From positions 1 to 40,285 of the forward strand of contig DASZFO010000096.1 of the NCBI GenBank assembly GCA_035939775.1: 40,285 nt of DNA. The letters run 5' to 3'. Below are positions 1 to 27,327 of this stretch, piece after piece; positions within the stretch are counted from its first letter, which is position 1, and every line of letters begins with the position of its first letter. This DNA is from Pirellulales bacterium. Lineage in GTDB: Bacteria; Planctomycetota; Planctomycetia; Pirellulales; DATAWG01. A program made the translations under genes and the position numbers. Under the pieces are notes generated by a model. It saw only the letters and a list, made by a program, of their open reading frames with translations, did not search any database and had not been told where the DNA came from.

Positions 1-1549
1 CATCGATGAGCATACCAGCCCCCGTCCCGCCGCCCGGCGAGGCGATCACGAAAACTCGCGGATCGCAACTGCCGAACGACAATCCAGTGGCCTCGGTCGT
101 CGCGGCGAGTCCATCGCGATCGGCCGCCGCTAGGATGGCCCTGCGAAGCTGCGTCTTCACGCGCTCGGCGTGATCGAGGAAGGCCAGCCGTCCCAAGGCC
201 CGCAGGCCCTCGGTTTTCTGTGAGCGGGGAATGTTATAGAGCCAGCGCCGGCTAAGCGAGCTGATTTGGCTGACGGGACTGTTGCGATAGTTCCAGGTCG
301 AATGGATCGGCAACAAGAGCGTTTCGGCTTCGCTTAACTTTCCAGCTCCCGAAGCGGAGCTGACCTCGTTCACCGCATCTACGTCCGTATCGATATAGAG
401 CATCTGGAAAGCCGATAGTTGCTTTTCCAATCCAAAACGTTCCCTGAGCAATTGCTTGAGCCGAGCGAGGATTCGCCCGCCGGCATGTCCGATTCCCAAG
501 AACACCGTGGGCCGAAAACTCGGTGCTTGCTCGTCGATGCAGATGGCTGGCAGACGGATCAATTCTGGTGGCCGAACTTCGATCGTTCTGCCGTCATGAC
601 GGGCATCGGGTTCCTCGGATCGCGTGCGGCTCTGCGATGGTTCGTTCACCGCCGGACGGACGGGCGCGCCGGTCAGCAGCGCCGTGCGCGATCGCGGTAC
701 GAGCCGTTCAACGAATTCGCGGCAGCTACTGAATCGCGTCGCCGGGTCTTTGGCGAGCGCCTTGCCGACCGCGAACCGCTCCAGCGGCGAAAGAGGAGTC
801 AGGTCGGGCATCGAGTGCAGATGTTGCGAGGCCAGTTGGGCAGCGGTTCGACCCGAAAAGGGAGACGTCCCTGTCGCCATTTCTTGGAACACGATCGCCA
901 GGCTGTACTGATCGCTGGTGCGGGTGGGGCGACCGTCAAAGACTTCCGGGGCCGCATATTTCGGAGTGAGACCGTTGATCAAGGAAGGACTTCCCTCGGT
1001 CATGTCCTTCAGCAGTCCGAAATCGGCAACCTTGATTCGACCGGCTACCAGCAGCAGGTTCTCCGGCTTGACGTCGAGATGCTGCAAGCCGTGACCGCTT
1101 TCCAAATAATCGAGCGCTTCGGCGGTCTGCGACAAATACTTCATCAGCTCGTCGCGCGGAATGCCGCAAGCGCCGGCCGCGAGACATTCCTCAAAACGAT
1201 CCTTCAAGCTCTCCTCGGCAAGATCGGTGACGATGACCAAGCGGCCGTCGACGACCGCGACGCTTTCCAGCGACAACAAAAACGGATGGCTGAGCGTCTT
1301 GACGCGGTTCAGCGACTTTAACTCCTGCGCAGCCCTCCGCTCGTCGAAGCAGCCAAAAATGATCTTGACCGCCTTCGCCTGCCCCTCCGGCCCGACGGCC
1401 TTCCAGATTTCGCCGCTGCCACCGGAACCTAGTCGCTTCTCCAGGGTGTAGCCCGTGAGCCGTCGGACTTCGTCCGGCATCGAGCCGAAGCGGTCGCGCT
1501 GCGGATGCGGCTGGGCCGGATCGCCGAATGTCGGAGTATCTTGCAGCAT
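1..1549 (-). CDS. Ser/Thr protein kinase fused to an FtsZ/tubulin-like domain (partial, C-terminus beyond window)
   Basis: The visible 516 residues start at ATG 1547-1549, 22 bases past the stop of the AAA+ ATPase gene, and run off the left edge without a stop. Residues about 34-285 form a Hanks-type kinase: glycine loop LGSGGSGEIW (40-49), the lysine in AVKII (Lys62), catalytic loop HLDVKPENLL (157-166, HLD instead of the usual HRD), DFG at 176-178 and APE at 200-202. After a hydrophilic linker (about 286-345) comes an FtsZ/tubulin-like GTP-binding fold: FLGIGHAGGRI (350-360) like the FtsZ T1 loop, YIDTDVDAVNE (385-395) like the T3 region, and the tubulin signature ASPGGGTGAG (503-512). The tubulin-like part is probably of the Tubulin_2 type rather than true FtsZ. 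Phosphorylation of the GTPase domain or its partners is inference. No transmembrane segment is seen in the visible part. Confidence 0.85.
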   Translation of the reverse strand, partial: MLQDTPTFGDPAQPHPQRDRFGSMPDEVRRLTGYTLEKRLGSGGSGEIWKAVGPEGQAKAVKIIFGCFDERRAAQELKSLNRVKTLSHPFLLSLESVAVVDGRLVIVTDLAEESLKDRFEECLAAGACGIPRDELMKYLSQTAEALDYLESGHGLQHLDVKPENLLLVAGRIKVADFGLLKDMTEGSPSLINGLTPKYAAPEVFDGRPTRTSDQYSLAIVFQEMATGTSPFSGRTAAQLASQHLHSMPDLTPLSPLERFAVGKALAKDPATRFSSCREFVERLVPRSRTALLTGAPVRPAVNEPSQSRTRSEEPDARHDGRTIEVRPPELIRLPAICIDEQAPSFRPTVFLGIGHAGGRILARLKQLLRERFGLEKQLSAFQMLYIDTDVDAVNEVSSASGAGKLSEAETLLLPIHSTWNYRNSPVSQISSLSRRWLYNIPRSQKTEGLRALGRLAFLDHAERVKTQLRRAILAAADRDGLAATTEATGLSFGSCDPRVFVIASPGGGTGAGMLID

Positions 1550-1570: not shown

Positions 1571-2914
1571 TCACGAAGACGGTGGTGACTTTTCGCCGAA
1601 AACCAGGGCGAAATAGGATCGGCAGACTCGGTCGAAATGCTCGGACCGCATTTCCAAGGGAATCCGCTTGTAGCGGCAATAGTTCCGGACCTGCTTGAGC
1701 AAATCGCGTGGATGACAGCGCCGCATCGCCCGGCCGTTTGGTCGATAATGGCGGTCCAAGAGTTGTTCGACCGCTTCGGGCCGAAATTCGAAGCCCAGCT
1801 TTTTCGCGTAACTGGCGAACAATACGAAGAACTCTTCCTCCGTCGGATCGATCAGTTCAATCTTGTAGGGGATTCGCCGAAGAAACGCCTCGTCGACCAG
1901 CTCACGGGGCTCGAGGTTCGTTGAAAAAATGATCAACTGTTCGAATGGAACGCGAATCTTCTTGCCGGTGGTCAACGTCAGGAAGTCATGTCCTTCCTCC
2001 AAGGGAACGATCCAGCGGTTCAAGAGTTCGATTGGGTTGATCCTCTGCCGGCCGAAGTCGTCGATCACCAGGCAGCCGCAATTGCTCTTCATCTGCAAGG
2101 ACGCCTCGGTCACATTGGTCGCCGGGTCGTGCCGGAGATCGAGGTTGTCCATCGTCAATTCCCCGCCGACCGTGACGGTGGGACGCCGAATCCGCACCCA
2201 GCGACGGTCGGCTTCCTTGCTCCTGAGGATTCCGTTTTGCGCGTCTTGGACCTGAAAATGGCAGGCCGAGTCGAACAGCTTGATGAGCTGCCCATCTTCG
2301 ACGATGGTGTTGGGAATCCAGATCTCCTGGCCGAAGCTGAGCGTGATCGCGCGGGCCAGCGTCGATTTGCCGTTACCGGCCGCCCCGTAGAGAAACATGC
2401 CTGCGCCGGAGTTCACCGCGGGCCCGATATAATCGAAGAGGCGCTCATCCACCGAAATGTCGGCACACGCGGCGCGGAGATGCTCATCGGTCGGGGACTC
2501 GCTGCTAATGCATTGCGCTTCCACCGAGATGATATAGTCGTTGAGTTGAACGGGGGCTGGCCCGACGTAGGCGCATGCGCTGCGCGCGGCCCTGGCGCGT
2601 TCGAGGCCTTGTTCGGTGAGAATGTAATAGAAGTCGTTAAACGGGGCCGCGCCGGTGTGCACGATCAATTGCTGCGTCCGCAGCGTCGCCAGGATTTCTT
2701 CCAGCACTCGAAAGGGCAGGCATACCTGCTCCGCGATTCGCCGGCCGCTGATATTCCCAGCGGCAGCCAGGTGTTTGAAGACCAGCGACTCGACCAAATT
2801 GGGAGGCAGCCCAGTCTCTTCCAGGGTCTTCGGCTCCGCTGGCCAGAACCGCTCATCGGACAGGAAGGCTTCCAGCCACGTTGATTCGACGTCTAGCGTT
2901 TCTGTAGTCAGCAA
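1571..2914 (-). CDS. AAA+ ATPase with N-terminal winged-helix-like region
   Basis: The 447-residue protein starts at a TTG (2912-2914) preceded by GGAG at 7 bases spacing. Residues about 35-110 are helical and resemble a winged-helix domain (VFKHLAAAGNISGRRIAEQ). The AAA+ core has Walker A GAAGNGKST (177-185), Walker B CLVIDDFG (281-288), a sensor-1 like STN (331-333) and an arginine-finger candidate FLRRIPYK (344-351). A C-terminal helical part contains RRCHPRDLLKQV. It lies directly upstream of the kinase-tubulin gene on the same strand with a 21-base gap, so the two are probably cotranscribed and act together. Similar ATPases are common in planctomycetes, but I do not know a defined function. 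It could remodel or load the tubulin-like partner; this is inference. Confidence 0.85.
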   Translation of the reverse strand: MLTTETLDVESTWLEAFLSDERFWPAEPKTLEETGLPPNLVESLVFKHLAAAGNISGRRIAEQVCLPFRVLEEILATLRTQQLIVHTGAAPFNDFYYILTEQGLERARAARSACAYVGPAPVQLNDYIISVEAQCISSESPTDEHLRAACADISVDERLFDYIGPAVNSGAGMFLYGAAGNGKSTLARAITLSFGQEIWIPNTIVEDGQLIKLFDSACHFQVQDAQNGILRSKEADRRWVRIRRPTVTVGGELTMDNLDLRHDPATNVTEASLQMKSNCGCLVIDDFGRQRINPIELLNRWIVPLEEGHDFLTLTTGKKIRVPFEQLIIFSTNLEPRELVDEAFLRRIPYKIELIDPTEEEFFVLFASYAKKLGFEFRPEAVEQLLDRHYRPNGRAMRRCHPRDLLKQVRNYCRYKRIPLEMRSEHFDRVCRSYFALVFGEKSPPSS

Positions 2915-3209: not shown

Positions 3210-4403
3210 GTGAGTATGCCGGCGGACGCATGCATGAGCCAAAACGAGAGCCATTTCGCCGTATTGCCCGAACTCGGGGGCGGGGAGCGCGGGCCCAATC
3301 GGGTGCTTGATGCCGCCCCCTGGACCCGTTCCATGTGGTTTCTATGTGGGCGGACCAGCGAGGCGGAGCCGGTTCGTTATGTGCCGGTCCATTCGAGCCC
3401 GTTCGTGATCGGACGCCGGGCAAATTGCGGACTTCAATTGGCGTGCTCGACGGTCTCGAGCGCCCACGCGGAGTTTATCGACAAGGGGGCGACCGCGGCG
3501 ATCTGCGATCTGGGGAGCACGAACGGCACGTTCGTCAATGGAAAGCGCGTGACGTCGGAAGTCGAAGTGGTGTCCGAAGACTTGATCCAGTTTGCAACTC
3601 AAGCGTTTCGAGTGCTGAAGCAAGACAGCTCGACCAATACGGCCACGGCTTGCGAAGACGTCCGCGATCAGGCGATGTCGCTGGTTCTCTTCGATCGTTT
3701 GATCACGGAACGAGCGGTGATCCCGTTTTATCAGCCGATCGTCGATCTGCGGACCATGGCGATCGAAGGCGTCGAGGTGTTGTGCCGAAGCCGTCTGACC
3801 GGCCTGGAAACGCCGCTGAAGATGTTTTCCGTGGCCGCCCAACTCGACCAGGAGGCGCGGCTCAGCCAGACGGTTCGCTGGACGGCCTGCAACGAAATGA
3901 TGGGCCTTCCCAAGCCTCCCCATCTGTTCATGAACACCCATCCGATCGAGATTCGCGAGCCGGGACTGATCGAATCGATCAAGCTGCTGCGTGCCGCCGC
4001 CCCTTCCCAGCCCATGACCTTGGAGATCCATGAAGCGGCAGTGACCGACGTCGTTCAAATGCGAAGGCTCAGCGAAGAACTCAAGAGCGTGAATGTCCGT
4101 TTGGCATTCGACGACTTCGGCGCCGGCCAGGCCCGGATCGCGGAGTTGACGGCCGTTCATCCCGATTATCTCAAATTCGACATCTCGTTGATTCGCAACA
4201 TCCATCGCGCGACGCCCGAACACCAGCAGATGGTGGCCCATCTTGTGAAGATGGTGCGCAGCTTGGGAATTCTCGCGTTGGCCGAGGGCGTGGAACTCGA
4301 AGAAGAAGCTGCTCTCTGCAAGGAGTTGGGCTTCGATCTGGCCCAAGGATTCTACTTTGGAAGGCCTGCGCCGATGAAACGCGTGCCGCCCTCGGGCGAA
4401 TAA
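3210..4403 (+). CDS. FHA domain - EAL domain signalling protein
   Basis: The protein has up to 397 residues. Starts are possible at GTG 3210, ATG 3216 and ATG 3234, and none has a clear ribosome-binding site. Residues about 56-137 form an FHA phosphothreonine-binding domain: FVIGRRANCGLQL, TVSSAHAEF and LGSTNGTFVNGKRV. Residues about 160-390 form an EAL-type cyclic-di-GMP phosphodiesterase domain: the EAL signature is EVL (189-191), followed by Asn242, LEIHE (271-275), DDFGAG (301-306), LKFD with Lys322, AEGVE (358-362) and QGFYFGRP (379-386). Most metal and catalytic positions are kept, so it may be active, but the altered EAL and DDFG flanks leave a binding-only role possible. It is soluble with no signal peptide. 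The divergent kinase gene next door suggests that the FHA domain reads a phosphothreonine written by that kinase (inference). Confidence 0.88.
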   Translation: MSMPADACMSQNESHFAVLPELGGGERGPNRVLDAAPWTRSMWFLCGRTSEAEPVRYVPVHSSPFVIGRRANCGLQLACSTVSSAHAEFIDKGATAAICDLGSTNGTFVNGKRVTSEVEVVSEDLIQFATQAFRVLKQDSSTNTATACEDVRDQAMSLVLFDRLITERAVIPFYQPIVDLRTMAIEGVEVLCRSRLTGLETPLKMFSVAAQLDQEARLSQTVRWTACNEMMGLPKPPHLFMNTHPIEIREPGLIESIKLLRAAAPSQPMTLEIHEAAVTDVVQMRRLSEELKSVNVRLAFDDFGAGQARIAELTAVHPDYLKFDISLIRNIHRATPEHQQMVAHLVKMVRSLGILALAEGVELEEEAALCKELGFDLAQGFYFGRPAPMKRVPPSGE

Positions 4404-4640: not shown

Positions 4641-6005
4641 ATGAGGTGCTCTATGGGGCAGACTGCGCGTCAATTAAGAGGCGTCGTCCTCTTGCTTGTC
4701 GTCGGCGCGACGACTGCCGCGGCGGCTGATTCGCCATATCCGCTAAAGATCGGGCCGACCGGGCGATATCTGGTCGATCGCCACGGCCAGCCGTTTCTGA
4801 TCGCCGGCGAGTCGCCGCAAGCGATGATGGTCAACGTATCCGAGGAAGACGCGGAACTATTCTTCAAAAACCGCCAGGCGCACGGCTTCAACGCCGCCTG
4901 GATCAATCTGATCTGCGCCAAGTACACCGGCGGGCGCGAGGACGCGAGCACTTTCGACGGCCTGCATCCGTTCAAGGCCGTGAACGACTTTTCGGAGCCG
5001 AACGAGGCGTATTTCGCCCGCTGCGATCGGATCATCCAGGTGGCGGCCAAGTACGACACACTCGTGATGCTCGATCCGGCCGAGACGGGGAGCTTTCTCG
5101 AAGTGATGCAGAAAAATGGAGCGGAAAAGTGCCGCGCGTACGGACGGTATCTTGGCAAGCGCTATAAGGACTTCGACAATCTGCTCTGGTTCCACGGCAA
5201 CGATTACGTGCAAGACACGGCCGAGAACGATAAGCTGGCCATCGCGATCGCCCTGGGGATCAAGGATCTCGACGATCGGCATTTGCACACGATTGAGATC
5301 GACTGGAAGGGAAATTGGTCGACCTCGCTCGTCAACGAGCGCTGGGCGCCGCTGGTGGGCCTAAGCGCCGCCTACACTTACAAGCCCGTTTACCTGCCGC
5401 TGCTTGCGGACTACAACCGCAAGACTGAGCATCGCGTGCCGACGTTCATGGTCGAATCGAGCTACGAGTTCGAGAACGTCGCCCACATCAAGTTCGGCGA
5501 CCCGCACCAGCTTCGCCTCGAGGAATACACCTCGAATCTCTGCGGCTCGACCGGGCAGCTCTACGGCAACAAATACACCTGGCCCTTTCTCGCCGGCTGG
5601 AAGGAGCAGCTCGACACGCCGGGCGCCGTGCAAATGAAGTACGTCCAATCTCTGTTCGAGCCGCGGGCATGGTACGACCTTGTGCCCGATCAGGAGCATA
5701 AGTTGCTGACCGAGGGATTCGGCAGGTTCGGCGAGTTCGACTACGCCGCCGCCGCGCGCACTCCAGACGGCCGGCTGGCGATGGCCTACATCCCCGACCG
5801 GCGAACGGTCACGGTCGATATGAGCCTTCTCGCGGGACCAACCATCGCCCGCTGGTACGACCCCGCCGCCGGCAAGTTCCACGACATCGCCGGCTCGCCG
5901 CTCGCAAACCGCGGCACGCACCAATTCACCACGCCCGGCGAAAACGCCGACGGCAAGGGAAACGAAGATTGGGTGCTGGTGCTGGAGGCCGAGAAGGCGA
6001 AGTGA
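4641..6005 (+). CDS. Secreted DUF4038 (apiosidase-like) glycoside hydrolase-type protein
   Basis: The protein has 454 residues if it starts at ATG 4641. ATG 4653 is also likely because AGGTG lies six bases before it, giving 450 residues. The N-terminus is a signal peptide (RGVVLLLVVGATTAAAA). The body resembles the DUF4038 family of TIM-barrel glycosidases: YPLKIGPTGRYLVDRHGQPF, then ESPQAMMVN and HGFNAAWINLI. The last 85 residues (RLAMAYIPDRRTVTVDMS ... WYDPAAGKF) look like the collagen-bind-2 beta domain that usually follows DUF4038. The protein probably acts on plant or algal polysaccharide in the periplasm or outside the cell. The substrate cannot be told from sequence, and I did not assign catalytic acids. 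It stands alone between repeats and the convergent waaA. Confidence 0.8.
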   Translation: MRCSMGQTARQLRGVVLLLVVGATTAAAADSPYPLKIGPTGRYLVDRHGQPFLIAGESPQAMMVNVSEEDAELFFKNRQAHGFNAAWINLICAKYTGGREDASTFDGLHPFKAVNDFSEPNEAYFARCDRIIQVAAKYDTLVMLDPAETGSFLEVMQKNGAEKCRAYGRYLGKRYKDFDNLLWFHGNDYVQDTAENDKLAIAIALGIKDLDDRHLHTIEIDWKGNWSTSLVNERWAPLVGLSAAYTYKPVYLPLLADYNRKTEHRVPTFMVESSYEFENVAHIKFGDPHQLRLEEYTSNLCGSTGQLYGNKYTWPFLAGWKEQLDTPGAVQMKYVQSLFEPRAWYDLVPDQEHKLLTEGFGRFGEFDYAAAARTPDGRLAMAYIPDRRTVTVDMSLLAGPTIARWYDPAAGKFHDIAGSPLANRGTHQFTTPGENADGKGNEDWVLVLEAEKAK

Positions 6006-19929: not shown

Positions 19930-22900
19930 ATGCCTGCCTCGGACATCGTCATCAAAGGCGCCCGCGAGCATAATCTGCGGGATATTCAGCTTGCACTGCC
20001 GCGGAACAAGCTGATTTGCTTGACCGGGGTGAGCGGGTCGGGGAAGAGTTCTCTAGCATTTGACACGCTGTACGCCGAAGGGCAGCGGCGCTACGTCGAG
20101 AGCCTCTCCAGCTTCGCCCGGCAATTCTTGGGGCAGATGCCGAAGCCGGACGTCGATTTCATCTCCGGGCTCAGCCCGTCGATTTCGATCTCGCAGAAGA
20201 CATCCGGCCAAAACCCGCGATCAACGGTCGGGACAATCACCGAGATTTACGATTATCTCCGCGTGCTCTACGCCCGCACCGGCCAAGGGCATTGCCCGAA
20301 TTGTTCGCGGCCGATCACCGCCCAGAGCCGCGAGCAGATCATCGAGCGGATCATGTCGCTTCCGGCGGAGACGCAGTTCCTCGTGCTCGCGCCGCTGATT
20401 CGAGCGCAGAAGGGGGAATATCGCGACCTGTTCGAAGACTTGATCAAGCAGGGTTTCGCGCGGGCGCGAGTCGATGGCCGGGTAGTGCAGCTCAGCGATG
20501 ATCTACGGCTCGACCGGCAGATGCGGCACAATATCGAGGTGGTCGTCGATCGGCTCACTGCCGGCGACTCAATCCGACCCCGATTGGCGGAGGCGGTCGA
20601 GTTGGCGCTGCGATTGGGGGAAGGGAATCTGATCGTCGCCGTGAATTCTGGCAGGGGCGCGGACGGAACGTCGGCTTCGGACGAAAAGCAGCCGAAGGCC
20701 GAGTTTCTCCCTCTCCCTTTTGGAGAGGACCAGGGTGAGGGTGAATCGTCTCTGGCTTCCCCTCGCCCTAACCCTCTCCCAGAGGGAGAGGGGACCGACT
20801 CTCGCCGACGCGGGCCGAGAAGCAAGGCAGCGAACCCAGGCGACATTGTCCTCTCGGCCCATTACGCCTGCACGCATTGCGGTCTGAGCTTTGAAAGCCC
20901 CAGCCCGCAGTTGTTCAGCTTTAACAGCCCGCAGGGAATGTGTCGCGAGTGCGACGGGTTGGGGGAAATCTACGGCTTCGATGTCGCGCAGCTCATTCCG
21001 AACACGGCGCGATCGTTCAAGGACGGCTGCATCGAGTTGGTCGGCCCATGGCGCGACATGGGGCGCTGGCGGCGGCACATTTATCAAGGCGTGGCCGACA
21101 CAGTCGAGCGAGTCCACGCCGTCGAATCCGGCACGATGCTCGAAACGCCTTGGGAGACGCTGCCGGCGGATCTGCAAAAACTCTGGCTCTGGGGCACCGG
21201 CAACGAGCACATCACGTTCACTTGGCGCAGCGGCGCGCATGGCCACAAATACGGCGGCCGATTCGAGGGGATCATCCCGCACCTGCTCTCGCGCTACCGC
21301 ACCACGAACAGCCGCATCCAACGCCGGCAGTTGGAAAAATACATGAGCGTCGTCCGCTGTGGGGCGTGCGGCGGGGCCCGGTTGGGGCCGCAAGGCCGCT
21401 CCGTCACACTCGCGACAGGGCATTCAAGATTCGCCGATCGACCCAAGCGATCCTTGCCTGACGTTTGTGCCTTGTCGGTTGCTGACGCGGGTGAGTTTTT
21501 CAGCGCCCTGCAACTCGATGCGACCGGCCAGAAGATCGCCGCCGAATTACTCAAGGAAATCCGCGGACGGCTCGGCTTTCTTGTCAACGTGGGTCTCGAA
21601 TACCTGACGCTCGATCGCACCGCTCCGACGCTTTCCGGCGGCGAATCGCAGCGGATTCGGTTGGCGGGGCAGATCGGTTGCGGGCTGGTCGGAGTGCTTT
21701 ACATCCTCGACGAGCCGTCAATCGGGCTGCACCCGCGCGACAATCAAAAGCTACTCGACACGCTTACGCAACTCCGCGACAAGGGGAACACGGTCATCGT
21801 GGTCGAGCACGACGAAGACACGATGCGGGCGGCCGACACGATCGTCGATTTCGGCCCCGGCCCCGGCGTCCGCGGCGGAGAACTCGTGGCCCAAGGCCCC
21901 GCCGCGACGATCGCCAAGACAACGAGGAGCATCACGGGCAAGTATCTTTCCGGGAAGCTCAGGATTGAAGTGCCGGGCAAGCGGCGATTGGGGCCTCATT
22001 CCTCACCTCTCACCCCTCGCCCTTCGTCCCTCTTGAGAATCATCGGCGCGCGGCACAACAATCTCCAAGGGATCGACGTCGAGATCCCACTCGGCGCCGT
22101 CGTCTGCGTCACCGGCGTTTCCGGCTCGGGCAAAAGTTCGCTGGTGAACGATATCCTCGTCGAAGCGCTCCGCCGCGATTTGAATGGCGGCGTCGGCGCC
22201 CCCGGCCACCACGAGCGGATCGAAGGGATCAATCATCTCGACAAGCTGATCGCCATCGATCAATCGCCGATCGGCCGCACGCCGCGATCCAATCCGGCGA
22301 CTTACATCAAGGTGTTCGACGACATCCGCAATCTATACGCGAAGCTATCCGAATCGAAGACTCGCGGCTACAAGCCGGGGCGGTTTAGCTTCAACGTGAG
22401 CGGCGGGCGATGCGAGGCCTGCGAGGGAAACGGTTCGAATCGGCTTGAAATGGACTTCCTGGCCGATGTGTGGGTCACCTGCCCGGTCTGCGAAGGGCAC
22501 CGTTTCAATCGCGAAACGCTCCAGGTGCGGTTCAAGGGGCAGAACATCGCCGACGTGCTGGAGATGGACATCCAGCAAGCTCTGGCACATTTCGAGAATG
22601 TCCCCGACGTGCGGCACAAGTTGCAAACGCTGCACGACGTGGGGTTGGATTATCTCAAACTTGGCCAGCCCTCGCCGACGCTCTCCGGCGGCGAGGCGCA
22701 GCGGATCAAGCTGGCCCGCGAGCTGGTCAAGAAGAGCACCGGCCGCACGCTCTACCTGCTCGACGAGCCGACGACGGGACTGCACTTCGCCGACATCCAA
22801 ATGCTGCTCAAAGTGCTGCACGATTTCGTCGACGCGGGGAACACGGTGCTCGTGGTCGAGCACAATCTGGATGTGATCAAGACGGCCGATTGGATCATCG

Positions 22901-25900
22901 ACCTCGGCCCCGAGGGAGGCAGCGGCGGCGGGCGCATCGTCGCCGTCGGCACGCCCGAGGAACTGGCCGCCAATCCCGATTCGTACACCGGACGGGCACT
23001 CGCGCCGCATCTCGATCCCTCAGCGCGAATACTGGCCGTGACCGCGGCGGCTAAGGCGGCGCGGCGCGGCAAAGCGCTCGGCGGCAAGTCCAAGGGCAAC
23101 GGCCAAGCCCGCGCGATCGTCGTTCGCGGCGCGCGGCAGCACAATCTCAAGGGAATCGACGTCGAAATCCCGCGCGATCAGATGACCGTCTGCTGCGGGT
23201 TGAGCGGTTCGGGCAAGAGTTCGCTGGCGATGGACACAATCTATGCCGAGGGGCAGCGGCGGTACGTCGAGAGCTTGAGTTCGTACGCTCGGCAGTTCGT
23301 CGGTCAGATGCAGAAGCCGAAGCTCGATCATATCGAAGGATTATCGCCCGCAATCGCCATCGAGCAGAAACACATGGGGCACACGCCGCGCTCGACCGTC
23401 GGCACGGTCACAGAGATTTACGATTATCTGCGGGTGCTGATGGCTCGGCTCGGCGAGCCGTATTGCCCCGCCTGCGACATCCCGATCGGCACGCAATCGG
23501 CCGACGAGATCATCGCGAAGATCATGGCCGAGCCGCCGGGGACAAAGCTCTATCTGATGGCTCCGCTTGAAATTCACGTCGGCGAGAATTACGAATCGCT
23601 GTGGGACGAGATTCGCGCCGGCGGTTATCCGAGGATACGGATCGATCGCCAGACCTATTCGGTCGATGAGCCGCCGACCATCGATCGCCGGCGCAGACAC
23701 TTGATTGAAGTGGTGATTGACCGCGTGGCTGTTCGACCAGACATCCGCTCGCGGATCGCCGGGAGCATCGAAACCGCGCTCGCGCTCGGCAAAGGGATGC
23801 TGCACGCTGCCTATCCGTCGGACGACATGCCGGAAGCGAAATGGCGGACCGAGATTCACAGCCAGCATTTCGCGTGCGACCGGTGCGGGCGGAGCTTCGA
23901 GCCGCTCACACCGCATAGTTTCTCATTCAACAGTCCGCTGGGCTGGTGCCCGACGTGCGAAGGGCTTGGCGTGCAATCCGGGGCGAATCCTGCCGCCCTG
24001 ATCCATGATCCCAAGCTGACGCTCGCCGAGGGGGCCGTCGGGATTTGGCCGGCCGTGGATCAGCCAATGTTTGCGGCGATGTTGGCGGCCTTATCGTCCA
24101 AGCTCGGCATCCCGACCGACGTGCCGTTCGAGCAACTCTCGGCCCGGCAGCGGCGCACGATCCTGCACGGCAGCGGCGAGGAATGGATCGATGTTTCAGT
24201 AGGGCACGCTGTGCGTGCCGAGCTCCCTCTCCATCTGGGAGAGGGCCGGGGTGAGGGGCGTCGGCAAAACGCTCTGGCCGCTTCCCCTCACCCTAACCCT
24301 CTCCCAAAGGGAGAGGGGACGATCACGAGGCAGCCATTGCCGCTGTGTTTTCGCTTCCAATACAAAGGCCTGTATCCTGCGCTCGAGGAGGCGGCGCGGC
24401 TCTCTCCCGCCATGCGCGGAAAGCTGGATCACCTGATCGATCAAGTGGAATGCTCGACCTGCGACGGCAGCCGGCTGCGCGACGACGCGGCGGCGGTTCG
24501 GCTGCGCGGGCGAACGAGCGACGAGATTTGCCGCCTGCCGCTCGGGCAGTTATCGGCCGAACTCGATCGCTGGGAACTTACCGATCGCGAGAAGAAGATT
24601 GCCGGCGATTTGATTCGCGAGATTCGCACGCGGGTGCAATTCCTGGTCGATGTCGGCCTTGAATACTTATCACTCGCCCGGCCTGCCCCGACATTGTCCG
24701 GCGGCGAATCGCAGCGGATTCGGCTGGCGAGCCAAGTGGGCAGCGGGCTGTGCGGCGTGCTGTACGTGCTCGATGAGCCGACGATTGGCCTGCATCCGCG
24801 CGACAATCGCCGCTTGCTCGGCGCTCTCGAAAAGCTCCGCGACCTGGGGAACACGCTGCTCGTGGTCGAGCACGATCGAGAAGTAGTCAAGAGCGCCGAT
24901 CAGTTGCTCGACTTTGGCCCCGGTGCCGGAGAATTCGGCGGCCAAATCGTCGCCCGGGGCACACCAGCGCAAGTCGCCAAATCAAGGACATCCGTCACCG
25001 GGTCGTATCTTTCGGGAAAGAAAGCAATTCCGATCCCGACGAATCGGCGCATGGGTTCCGTAGGGCACGCTGTGCGTGCCAAGCCGTCGCGTGCCAAGGC
25101 CGTCACGCACAGCGTGCCCTACGACTCGCCGCCGGATCCTCCCGGCGGCGGCTGGCTCGAAATTATCGGCGCTCGGCACAACAACCTCCGCAACATCGAC
25201 GTGCGCATTCCCCTCGGCACTCTAACGGCCGTCACCGGCGTGAGCGGCAGCGGAAAAAGCTCGCTGATCGAAGACGTGCTCTATAACTCGCTCGCCCGCA
25301 CTCTGCATCGCGCCCGCCTCATGCCCGCCCCGCACGACACGATCCGCGGCATCGAGCACGTGAACAAAGTGATCCGAGTGGATCAACAGCCGCTCGGGAA
25401 TACTCCGACCTCGAACCCAGCAACGTACACCGGCGTGTTCGATTTAATCCGCGAGCTGTACGCTCAGCTTCCCGAGGCGAAGATTCGCGGCTACATGCCG
25501 CGGCGGTTCAGCTTCAACGCCCCCGGCGGCCGCTGCGAGGCCTGCGAGGGAAACGGCCAAAAGCGGATCGAGATGCACTTTCTGCCCGACGTGTGGGTCG
25601 AGTGCGATGTCTGCCGCGGCCAGCGATACAACCCCGAGACGCTCGCCGTGCGCTACCACGGCCAATCGATCGCCGAGGTGCTCGATATGTCGTGCGGCCG
25701 GGCGGTCAAGCTATTCGAAAATATCCCCAGGATTCGCAAGATTCTGCAAACGCTCTGCGACGTTGGGCTGGATTATCTCACGCTCGGCCAGCCGGCGCCG
25801 ACGTTGAGCGGCGGCGAAGCGCAGCGCGTCAAGCTGGCGGCGGAACTGTCGCGCCCCGACACCGGGCGAACGCTCTTCCTGCTCGACGAGCCGACCACCG

Positions 25901-27327
25901 GGCTGCACTTCGACGACGTGGCGAAGCTGCTCGACGTGCTCAACCGGCTCGTGGACCTGGGAAATACCGTCGTGGTGATAGAGCACAATTTGGACGTGAT
26001 CAAGACGGCCGATTGGGTGATCGACATGGGACCGGAGGCGGGCGAGGGAGGAGGGTTCGTTGTCGGAGTGGGCACGCCCGAACAGGTCGCTACGAATGCG
26101 GCGCAAGTACGAAGTACGAAGTACGAAGTACGAAAGAAGGGTGGCACTGGCCAGCGAAGTCGGCCAGTGCCGGACGGCGGCAATTCGCCAGCGCAGTCGG
26201 CCATTGGCGGCATTCACCGCAGCCATACAGCCGAAGCGCTCGCACCAATGCTGGCGGCTGGTCCGCATGTGGAAAGGAAACCACATGACTTCGCGGCCGC
26301 CCAAACGCGACGCGCGGAGGATGTGGAGATTCATGAGGTCGGCAAGGCAGTCAGGATGCCCTGGGAAGTGGATGGCCGGCGCTGGCATACGCACGATCGA
26401 GTGGGCCGCACCGGCGAGCCATGTCGCTGGGATGGAGAGGTTTTGGCTCGCGTCGTCGATCGGATTCACGAGCTGGGTGAGTTCAGCGAAACCGATTGGA
26501 ATAGCCGCGGAGTGGTTGAGATTCGGGCCACGAAGAAATCCGACGGCTGGTTCTTTCATGCCATCACCGGCGAGCAATGGCTGTTGAAGCTGAAGTTCCG
26601 CGTTGCCCGCGCCACCTTCAAGCGCGAGAACTTGATCGAGCGGATCGCGCTGACGCCGCTCAACGATCTGGAGCATCTGCCGGTGTACGGCAACGATCCG
26701 CGGGTGAAGTGCAAGAACCTTCGCGGGCCGTTTCAGGAGGTCGAAATCCGCGTGCATTCGCTCGCCGAGATGGACCATCCGGAGTTCTGGAAATTCCTCG
26801 CCGAGGCGGTGGCCGGTTTTCAGAAATTTACGCATCGCGTCGAGCAGAAGCCGGAGGACCTCATGCCTTGGAAAGTGCTTGGCCGAAAATGGCATTTCTC
26901 ACGGAAAGGGTTTCCGCCGGGGAAGCGGGTTCACTGGGAGGCGGAGGTGCTCGAGGAGCTGTGCGAACTCCTCTCGTCGGCCGCCCCCGCCGGACAATTC
27001 CTTTGGAACAATCAGCAATTGGTCCACATGTTTGTCCCCGGCCAGCGCGAGCCGTGGGCCTCAATTCACACCAAGCGGTTGGCGAGCGTCGATCTGCAAC
27101 TGAACGGACCGAAGGGACGATTTGCCCTGGGCCGTCTGACCGACTTGGGAACCGAGCGGAACCTGGACGCGACGCGGCCGGATTTCGACTTCATACAGAT
27201 CAGTTTTCGCGCGGTCGATGATCTTCATCGGGGAAACTTGACGGCATTTCTGCAAGAACATTTGGCAACGATCGGATCGAGCAACGGCGAAGCGAAAAAC
27301 ACGCGGAGATTGGCGCGAGCGTTTTAG
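19930..27327 (+). CDS. uvrA: Double-length fused UvrA (excinuclease ABC subunit A) with C-terminal duplicated domain
   Basis: UvrA finds DNA damage and loads UvrB in nucleotide excision repair. This 2465-residue protein holds two complete UvrA copies. Half one (to about 1045) has Walker A near 33 and 729 and ABC signatures (LSGGESQ, LSGGEAQ) near 568 and 918. Half two (about 1055-2050) has Walker A near 1090 and 1770 and signatures near 1589 and 1959. Both halves keep zinc-binding CxxC pairs (YACTHCG ... CRECDG; RCEACEGNG ... CPVCEGH; FACDRCG ... CPTCEG; RCEACEGNG ... CDVCRGQ). One protein therefore resembles a covalent UvrA dimer. A double UvrA is known from Chlamydiae. The last 350 residues are an extra duplicated domain (see separate entry). 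Palindromic repeats are inserted in frame at codons about 260-288, 1424-1464, 1711-1731 and 2059-2081, all at linkers. The start ATG 19930 has no obvious ribosome-binding site. Confidence 0.95.
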   Translation: MPASDIVIKGAREHNLRDIQLALPRNKLICLTGVSGSGKSSLAFDTLYAEGQRRYVESLSSFARQFLGQMPKPDVDFISGLSPSISISQKTSGQNPRSTVGTITEIYDYLRVLYARTGQGHCPNCSRPITAQSREQIIERIMSLPAETQFLVLAPLIRAQKGEYRDLFEDLIKQGFARARVDGRVVQLSDDLRLDRQMRHNIEVVVDRLTAGDSIRPRLAEAVELALRLGEGNLIVAVNSGRGADGTSASDEKQPKAEFLPLPFGEDQGEGESSLASPRPNPLPEGEGTDSRRRGPRSKAANPGDIVLSAHYACTHCGLSFESPSPQLFSFNSPQGMCRECDGLGEIYGFDVAQLIPNTARSFKDGCIELVGPWRDMGRWRRHIYQGVADTVERVHAVESGTMLETPWETLPADLQKLWLWGTGNEHITFTWRSGAHGHKYGGRFEGIIPHLLSRYRTTNSRIQRRQLEKYMSVVRCGACGGARLGPQGRSVTLATGHSRFADRPKRSLPDVCALSVADAGEFFSALQLDATGQKIAAELLKEIRGRLGFLVNVGLEYLTLDRTAPTLSGGESQRIRLAGQIGCGLVGVLYILDEPSIGLHPRDNQKLLDTLTQLRDKGNTVIVVEHDEDTMRAADTIVDFGPGPGVRGGELVAQGPAATIAKTTRSITGKYLSGKLRIEVPGKRRLGPHSSPLTPRPSSLLRIIGARHNNLQGIDVEIPLGAVVCVTGVSGSGKSSLVNDILVEALRRDLNGGVGAPGHHERIEGINHLDKLIAIDQSPIGRTPRSNPATYIKVFDDIRNLYAKLSESKTRGYKPGRFSFNVSGGRCEACEGNGSNRLEMDFLADVWVTCPVCEGHRFNRETLQVRFKGQNIADVLEMDIQQALAHFENVPDVRHKLQTLHDVGLDYLKLGQPSPTLSGGEAQRIKLARELVKKSTGRTLYLLDEPTTGLHFADIQMLLKVLHDFVDAGNTVLVVEHNLDVIKTADWIIDLGPEGGSGGGRIVAVGTPEELAANPDSYTGRALAPHLDPSARILAVTAAAKAARRGKALGGKSKGNGQARAIVVRGARQHNLKGIDVEIPRDQMTVCCGLSGSGKSSLAMDTIYAEGQRRYVESLSSYARQFVGQMQKPKLDHIEGLSPAIAIEQKHMGHTPRSTVGTVTEIYDYLRVLMARLGEPYCPACDIPIGTQSADEIIAKIMAEPPGTKLYLMAPLEIHVGENYESLWDEIRAGGYPRIRIDRQTYSVDEPPTIDRRRRHLIEVVIDRVAVRPDIRSRIAGSIETALALGKGMLHAAYPSDDMPEAKWRTEIHSQHFACDRCGRSFEPLTPHSFSFNSPLGWCPTCEGLGVQSGANPAALIHDPKLTLAEGAVGIWPAVDQPMFAAMLAALSSKLGIPTDVPFEQLSARQRRTILHGSGEEWIDVSVGHAVRAELPLHLGEGRGEGRRQNALAASPHPNPLPKGEGTITRQPLPLCFRFQYKGLYPALEEAARLSPAMRGKLDHLIDQVECSTCDGSRLRDDAAAVRLRGRTSDEICRLPLGQLSAELDRWELTDREKKIAGDLIREIRTRVQFLVDVGLEYLSLARPAPTLSGGESQRIRLASQVGSGLCGVLYVLDEPTIGLHPRDNRRLLGALEKLRDLGNTLLVVEHDREVVKSADQLLDFGPGAGEFGGQIVARGTPAQVAKSRTSVTGSYLSGKKAIPIPTNRRMGSVGHAVRAKPSRAKAVTHSVPYDSPPDPPGGGWLEIIGARHNNLRNIDVRIPLGTLTAVTGVSGSGKSSLIEDVLYNSLARTLHRARLMPAPHDTIRGIEHVNKVIRVDQQPLGNTPTSNPATYTGVFDLIRELYAQLPEAKIRGYMPRRFSFNAPGGRCEACEGNGQKRIEMHFLPDVWVECDVCRGQRYNPETLAVRYHGQSIAEVLDMSCGRAVKLFENIPRIRKILQTLCDVGLDYLTLGQPAPTLSGGEAQRVKLAAELSRPDTGRTLFLLDEPTTGLHFDDVAKLLDVLNRLVDLGNTVVVIEHNLDVIKTADWVIDMGPEAGEGGGFVVGVGTPEQVATNAAQVRSTKYEVRKKGGTGQRSRPVPDGGNSPAQSAIGGIHRSHTAEALAPMLAAGPHVERKPHDFAAAQTRRAEDVEIHEVGKAVRMPWEVDGRRWHTHDRVGRTGEPCRWDGEVLARVVDRIHELGEFSETDWNSRGVVEIRATKKSDGWFFHAITGEQWLLKLKFRVARATFKRENLIERIALTPLNDLEHLPVYGNDPRVKCKNLRGPFQEVEIRVHSLAEMDHPEFWKFLAEAVAGFQKFTHRVEQKPEDLMPWKVLGRKWHFSRKGFPPGKRVHWEAEVLEELCELLSSAAPAGQFLWNNQQLVHMFVPGQREPWASIHTKRLASVDLQLNGPKGRFALGRLTDLGTERNLDATRPDFDFIQISFRAVDDLHRGNLTAFLQEHLATIGSSNGEAKNTRRLARAF
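20709..20793. repeat. In-frame palindromic coding repeat, first copy in uvrA
   Basis: Inverted arms around 20709-20741 and 20759-20793 code in the uvrA frame for LPLPFGEDQGEG and PRPNPLPEGEG, the same frame as the hemY copy. It lies just before the first zinc-binding module, in a stretch not conserved in UvrA. Confidence 0.93.
24199..24219. repeat. GTAGGGCACGCTGTGCGTG repeat inside uvrA, half copy
   Basis: This 21-base sequence codes for VGHAVRA in the uvrA frame. It lies immediately before the PLPLGEG-family insert at 24225, so two repeat families are nested or adjacent at one site. An identical 21-mer occurs at 25060-25080. Confidence 0.9.
24225..24319. repeat. In-frame palindromic coding repeat, second copy in uvrA
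   Basis: Inverted arms 24225-24258 and 24284-24319 code for LPLHLGEGRGEG and SPHPNPLPKGEG in the uvrA frame. The insert splits a loop between GSGEEWIDVS and LPLCFRFQYKGLYPALEE in the second UvrA copy. Confidence 0.93.
25060..25122. repeat. GTAGGGCACGCTGTGCGTG palindrome inside uvrA, full copy
   Basis: The left arm at 25060-25078 is the inverted copy of 25104-25122. The uvrA frame reads VGHAVRAKPSRAKAVTHSVPY. It lies in the linker before the last ATPase module, where the family has no conserved sequence. Confidence 0.93.
26106..26171. repeat. AGTACGA tandem repeat followed by a GGCACTGGCC palindrome in uvrA
   Basis: Four exact copies of AGTACGA (26106-26133) are followed by GGCACTGGCC at 26143-26152 and its inverted copy GGCCAGTGCC at 26162-26171. 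The frame stays open and codes for a linker between the UvrA core and the C-terminal domain. A 23-base part of the palindrome recurs on the other strand at 36275-36297. Confidence 0.9.
26355..27300 (+). other. Duplicated C-terminal domain of the fused UvrA
   Basis: Two related units, about residues 2143-2295 and 2312-2455, follow the UvrA core. The first begins MPWEVDGRRWHTHDRVG and continues RWDGEVLARVVDRIHELG; the second begins MPWKVLGRKWHFSRKGFPPG and continues HWEAEVLEELCELLSS. The shared pattern is PW-x-V-x-G-R-x-WH, a basic loop, then W-(E/D)-x-E-V-L followed by a helix, and later hydrophobic strands. I cannot name the fold. An accessory nucleic-acid or protein-binding role is a guess. 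Confidence 0.8.

Follow-up and report, generated by a model that had tools for sequence, protein, structure and literature searches.

The locus and its genes

The window, a stretch of 40,285 nucleotides from a Pirellulales bacterium, is one contig (C96) of a 6.39 Mb genome assembled in 384 contigs. Its left end carries a gene for a Hanks-type kinase fused to an FtsZ-like (FtsZl1) domain, which is cut by the contig end, together with genes for an AAA ATPase and for a protein with FHA and EAL domains. The features are as follows:

2–1549, minus strand: kinase–FtsZl1 fusion gene, N-terminal 516 codons (open reading frame and Pfam); the 3′ part lies on contig C349 (L146 3693–5585, minus strand)
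704–1450, minus strand: Hanks-type Ser/Thr kinase domain, residues 34–282 (Pfam Pkinase, E = 9.3e-33)
1058–1081, minus strand: catalytic loop HLDVKPEN, with HLD for HRD, residues 157–164 (motif reading)
506–703, minus strand: linker between kinase and tubulin-like domain, residues 283–348, probably disordered (residues 284–319 of the relative L087 have pLDDT below 50)
2–505, minus strand: Tubulin_2/FtsZl1 domain, first half up to the T4 loop, residues 349–516 (Pfam Tubulin_2 and the model of the relative)
221–250, minus strand: RRWLYNIPRS signature, of which RRWLYNIP is invariant in the cassette-linked family (alignment)
14–34, minus strand: GGGTGAG nucleotide-binding (T4) loop, residues 506–512 (motif; glycines invariant in the alignment)
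1571–2914, minus strand: gene of an N-terminally extended AAA ATPase, upstream of the fusion (Walker A GAAGNGKST, Walker B LVIDDFG)
3210–4403, plus strand: gene for the FHA–EAL protein, oriented divergently from the AAA gene (Pfam EAL, E = 6e-46; FHA, E = 9e-15)
3645–3647, plus strand: codon for residue 146, the invariant threonine that lies between FHA and EAL (alignment column)

The fusion frame starts at an ATG at 1549, with a possible TTG start upstream at 1570, and runs without a stop to the contig end. The AAA gene, directly upstream on that strand, is separated from this ATG by 21 bases.

The kinase–FtsZl1 protein and its continuation

The identity of the window protein as a kinase fused to FtsZl1 is near certain. 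The first-pass annotation had read it as a full Hanks kinase joined to a tubulin-superfamily fold, and both profiles score above the Pfam cut-offs: Pkinase at 114 bits against 31.7, and Tubulin_2 (PF13809) at 78 bits against 27 (E = 1.1e-21). The motifs that it named were found where it had placed them. All the features by which Hanks-type kinases are recognized are present, namely the glycine-rich loop (residues 41–46), the VAIK-type lysine (K62), the catalytic aspartate, DFG, and APE. The arginine of the RD type is absent, which is a subgroup trait and no requirement for kinases. The HLD triplet was noted correctly, but its interpretation as a hint of activation-loop-independent control is weak, as H, L, and D are each conserved in at least 90% of the 67 aligned members, so HLD is a trait of the family.

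In the tubulin-like part, GIGHAGG stands at residues 352–358 and DTDVDAVNE at 387–395. The T1 glycines and the GGGTG(S/T)G loop that characterize FtsZl1 are found, with alanine at the S/T place. Relatives often have another residue in place of the first T4 glycine; the window protein keeps the full GGGTGAG. The Tubulin_2 match covers profile positions 1–181 of 356 because the contig end cuts the gene, while the canonical FtsZ profile (PF00091) gives the fusion 21.4 bits, below its cut-off of 33.

The leftward continuation called for at first pass was located in the same genome, on contig C349, where the remaining 630 codons stand in an open frame that reaches the contig end. A family profile of the tubulin part is matched at positions 2–190 in the window and at 192–801 at the C349 end. 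The two contigs share no sequence, which ruled out joining them by overlap, and approximately one base is missing between them. With its 3′ part on C349, the full fusion protein would comprise 516 + 1 + 630 codons, or approximately 1,147 amino acids. A Pfam search of the C349 part of the protein returned nothing significant.

The linker contains 8.3% threonine against 5.2% in whole proteins, a value equally high in relatives that lack the partner genes described below; the enrichment is therefore not specific to cassette members and was dropped as evidence for FHA docking.

Predicted fold of the tubulin-like part

Structure prediction was performed with AlphaFold2 on the full-length relative L087 (1,160 amino acids), using a 67-row alignment that includes the window protein. 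L087 is approximately 50% identical to the window protein over the shared part, and the statements on fold rest on this relative. The whole-protein model reached a pLDDT of 87.3 and a pTM of 0.69, and its kinase part resembles PknB of Mycobacterium tuberculosis (Z 27.7, 2.3 Å, 248 residues aligned). As kinases filled the fold-search list of the whole protein, a separate prediction was made for the tubulin part (pLDDT 90.0, pTM 0.83). Its closest likeness is to CetZ (Z 26.1, 3.7 Å, 302 residues), followed by FtsZ (Z 22.6) and tubulins (approximately 22), and Foldseek agrees (CetZ2, E = 6.9e-6). The tubulin and kinase assignments made from motifs are thus borne out in the predicted structure of the relative.

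The structural alignments span residues 20–824 of the 839-residue model of the tubulin part, so the tubulin fold, with both its domains, appears complete but is interrupted by a helical insert. We infer from the model that the C-terminal domain is split, with S7-H9 at 326–358 and S8-H10-S9-S10 at 758–806, and that a helical or coiled-coil insert of approximately 370 residues lies between them. The C349 part aligns over the region corresponding to the coiled-coil region and C-terminal domain of FtsZl1, and the helices of L087 in it are 40–50 residues long. The final 100 residues or so are alpha/beta rather than mostly helical as first described for FtsZl1. At the expected T7 loop, the sequence reads D/N-x-x-T-x-A/G and not NxDxxD, in a register that comes from the model and is uncertain; since the T7 acids appear not to be conserved at this place, the normal FtsZ GTPase cycle may be absent. 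Profile comparison with Escherichia coli FtsZ was weak (42 columns, probability 7).

Distribution of the fusion

When GTDB genomes were searched with a pattern specific to the family, 67 loci were obtained. The kinase and Tubulin_2 are in one frame in 66 of them, and the 67th (L064) is cut by a contig end; complete chromosomes with the fusion include those of Adhaeretor mobilis and Lacipirellula limnantheis. With so many loci from a separate genome collection, complete chromosomes among them, neither chance resemblance nor a chimera accounts for the fusion. A chimeric assembly join is ruled out by dozens of independent planctomycete genomes and by the continuation on C349. A chance match of motifs, judged unlikely at first pass, is likewise ruled out by the Pfam profiles and the CetZ structural match of the relative's model.

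Sampling of the class found Tubulin_2 in 138 of 297 genomes, against 14 of 294 in the sample of the phylum, and scans of fetched loci revealed a fused kinase in nearly all members of the class. Within the order, it is present in 43 of 80 other sampled genomes and missing from 37, and the sampled genome of the same family also lacks it. The nearest relatives of the window protein are approximately 50% identical or less; judged by such sequence divergence, the family is old and diverse.

Another family-level group of the class (f107) carries the fusion, often in several copies per genome, and its fetched loci lack the AAA and FHA–EAL partners. The fusion also exists in other families of the class without these genes, and so does not as such require the partners. 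Tandem kinase–FtsZl1 pairs without AAA or FHA–EAL occur in another family of the class (L126, 5435–12750; L127, 4910–12032), and they are possibly heterodimer partners. One contig named Candidatus Nealsonbacteria (L061) has a typical planctomycete kinase–FtsZl1 gene and is probably a binning error.

A conserved gene cassette

The immediate neighbors of the fusion are the AAA and FHA–EAL genes; vWA, P-loop GTPase, and OmpA genes are not among them. The AAA protein is 53%–63% identical to the corresponding neighbors of relatives. It has a weak AAA_16 match (E = 8e-4), its profile matches VCP-like AAA chains, and its N-terminal extension is probably a winged helix. An FHA–EAL gene lies near the fusion in 61 of the 67 GTDB loci; most of the others are on short or cut contigs, and one (L103) looks like a true exception. 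Blastopirellula marina and Lacipirellula limnantheis are cultured species that carry the cassette. Throughout the order, these genes flank the fusion in one of three arrangements: AAA / GGDEF–CBS (opposite strand) / FHA–EAL / fusion; FHA–EAL (opposite strand) / AAA / fusion, which is the layout of the window; and, third, AAA / fusion / FHA–EAL. The cassette often also includes a degenerate GGDEF–CBS protein.

One paralogue in the AAA family is nearly universal and scores below approximately 646 bits. With a cut-off of at least 650 bits, set by eye, the linked AAA group was found in 39 of 43 Tubulin_2-positive genomes of the order against none of 37 negative ones, with a borderline 40th case at 645.7 bits (G423). 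Linked AAA and fusion agree in presence and absence within several genera and families (for instance, G415 against G435, G506, and G559 within a single genus), which speaks for more than common descent. The universal paralogue (e.g., on contig C308 of this genome) had no conserved neighbors and offered no functional clue.

A second cassette occurs in the same genome on contig C110 (L003, 3329–9910), with AAA, GGDEF–CBS, an FHA protein with an EAL part that has become unrecognizable, and a short kinase–FtsZl1 of approximately 778 amino acids that lacks most of the helical insert.

The FHA–EAL partner and its conserved threonine

All 30 sampled partners have FHA, and 28 of them have EAL. The window protein possesses the complete set of EAL catalytic residues that was checked (E, N, E, D, D, K, E, and Q), which suggests that it probably degrades c-di-GMP. 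Two types of cassette can be told apart. All 29 cassettes with a GGDEF–CBS gene have a degenerate EAL, and the GGDEF motifs themselves are missing from nearly all GGDEF–CBS proteins. Among the 32 cases in which no such gene was seen, the DDF criterion marks EAL as intact in 25; of the remaining seven, several lie on short contigs. The window cassette belongs to the intact-EAL type.

A single threonine in the linker between FHA and EAL is retained in 30 of 30 proteins of the intact type and 39 of 41 of the degenerate type, while no other linker column exceeds 46% threonine. This residue is a candidate phosphoswitch or kinase target like that of GarA/OdhI.

Relation to known systems

The FtsZl1 family was named, and its fusion to a kinase in Planctomycetes reported, by Makarova and Koonin (2010; PMC2875224), and the fusion was repeated in papers of 2023 and 2024 (PMC9871819; PMC11032199). 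The fusion is therefore not new. The order of kinase, FtsZ-like domain, coiled-coil region, and C-terminal domain is the same, as is the lineage; FtsZl1 is also listed for Gemmata massiliana. The main text on FtsZl1 contains neither the AAA, FHA–EAL, and GGDEF–CBS cassette nor a C-terminal completion of the tubulin fold. Makarova and Koonin were unable to align T6-H7 or the C-terminal domain (PMC2875224), so the split-fold model extends their description; it would also give FtsZl1 a structural place in the superfamily, something that was out of reach of sequence analysis alone in 2010. The typical FtsZl1 context, a vWA/GTPase/OmpA operon, does not define the family, and the immediate neighbors of the fusion differ from it. 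With CetZ, FtsZ, and tubulin, the protein shares the predicted fold and the T1 and T4 loops, but it differs in the helical insert, the fused kinase, and the lack of clear T7 acids.

In Actinobacteria, the autophosphorylated extensions of the kinase PknG recruit the FHA substrate GarA/OdhI (PMC8546545), likewise a pairing of a kinase with an FHA protein that has a conserved threonine beside the FHA domain. However, the threonine of GarA/OdhI is N-terminal to FHA and that of the cassette protein C-terminal, the cassette partner has an EAL domain, and the cassette kinase is joined to a tubulin-like domain. With the threonine on the other side of FHA, the likeness would be one of working and not of descent.

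In open-licence main texts, neither the cassette nor the split fold nor the conserved threonine was found described, and open-licence papers yielded no report of FHA with EAL in Planctomycetes. These three features go beyond the literature found. The conserved cassette suggests how a fusion known since 2010 may be wired.

Proposed mechanism and alternative explanations

The best-supported reading, held tentatively and at somewhat below even chances, is that the cassette fusion is a kinase-bearing tubulin-like scaffold that phosphorylates and recruits the FHA–EAL protein and is remodeled by the AAA ATPase. The tubulin-like part would bind GTP and assemble into a dimer or filament, bringing kinase domains together for autophosphorylation and for phosphorylation of FHA–EAL at the invariant threonine. 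FHA would read phosphothreonine either on the disordered linker of the kinase, as recruitment, or on FHA–EAL itself, as a switch, and this reading would set the c-di-GMP phosphodiesterase activity of EAL locally. The AAA ATPase may then remodel or dismantle the assembly. In the second cassette type, EAL and GGDEF without active sites would probably serve as binding or sensory domains. The stronger proposal of a self-contained switch, in which a polymer-borne kinase acts through the phosphothreonine of FHA–EAL to couple assembly to local c-di-GMP and AAA disassembles the polymer, is speculative, and we consider it rather unlikely to hold in full. If true, it would directly link a cytoskeletal fold, Ser/Thr phosphorylation, and c-di-GMP. 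Planctomycetes organize their cells without FtsZ, and the fusion, though known, is an orphan protein; the cassette supplies candidate partners for it, and the invariant threonine and intact EAL provide checkable predictions. The regulated cytoskeletal or membrane-remodeling role suggested at first pass is a possible one.

The tubulin-like domain could instead be a scaffold only, a nucleotide-locked, non-hydrolyzing oligomerization module that clusters kinases without a dynamic filament. The apparent loss of the T7 acids with retention of the T1 and T4 glycines fits this explanation, as does the frequent replacement of the first T4 glycine in relatives, yet the T7 register is model-based and the window protein retains the full GGGTGAG, and we regard it as unlikely. 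A membrane-remodeling or vesicle system with a fused kinase, the function that Makarova and Koonin proposed for FtsZl1, deserves slightly more credit but is still improbable: the protein is of the same family by profile, with the FtsZ-like domain, coiled-coil region, and C-terminal domain, but its immediate partners are AAA and FHA–EAL rather than vWA, GTPase, or OmpA.

Two further functions appear far less probable than these. The fusion could be a cytokinetic stand-in for FtsZ in planctomycete division, forming a tubulin-like ring timed by the kinase. The first-pass annotation rightly expected canonical FtsZ to be lacking: PF00091 has no match in this genome, with 13 of 14 controls positive, and FtsZ is reported absent from Planctomycetes (PMC6952346); the tubulin/CetZ fold would also suit such a role. 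A division role is nevertheless highly unlikely, because approximately half of the order (37 of 80 other sampled genomes) and the sampled same-family genome lack the gene; the other organisms studied typically have FtsZ alongside FtsZl1 (PMC2875224), and the T7 acids were not seen in the model-derived register. Hardly more credible is an anti-phage or conflict system in which NTP-dependent assembly triggers a response, as in the GTPase–tubulin systems of Kaur and colleagues. Tubulin-family proteins are known in such systems (PMC7159879), the kinase matches the Mad6 and PD-T4-6 models of PADLOC, and the presence of the gene is patchy. However, the PADLOC kinase matches reflect a domain common to all Hanks kinases, the IetA matches of the AAA protein are weak, no effector domain was recognized, and the gene set is long conserved, with old divergence.

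Other genes in the window

Beyond the cassette, the window encodes an apiosidase-like protein with a putative collagen-binding domain (4641–6002, plus strand). Farther along, a 2,465-amino-acid open reading frame (19930–27324, plus strand) contains UvrA interaction and UvrA DNA-binding domains, two of each, together with ABC regions; two copies of UvrA apparently share one frame.
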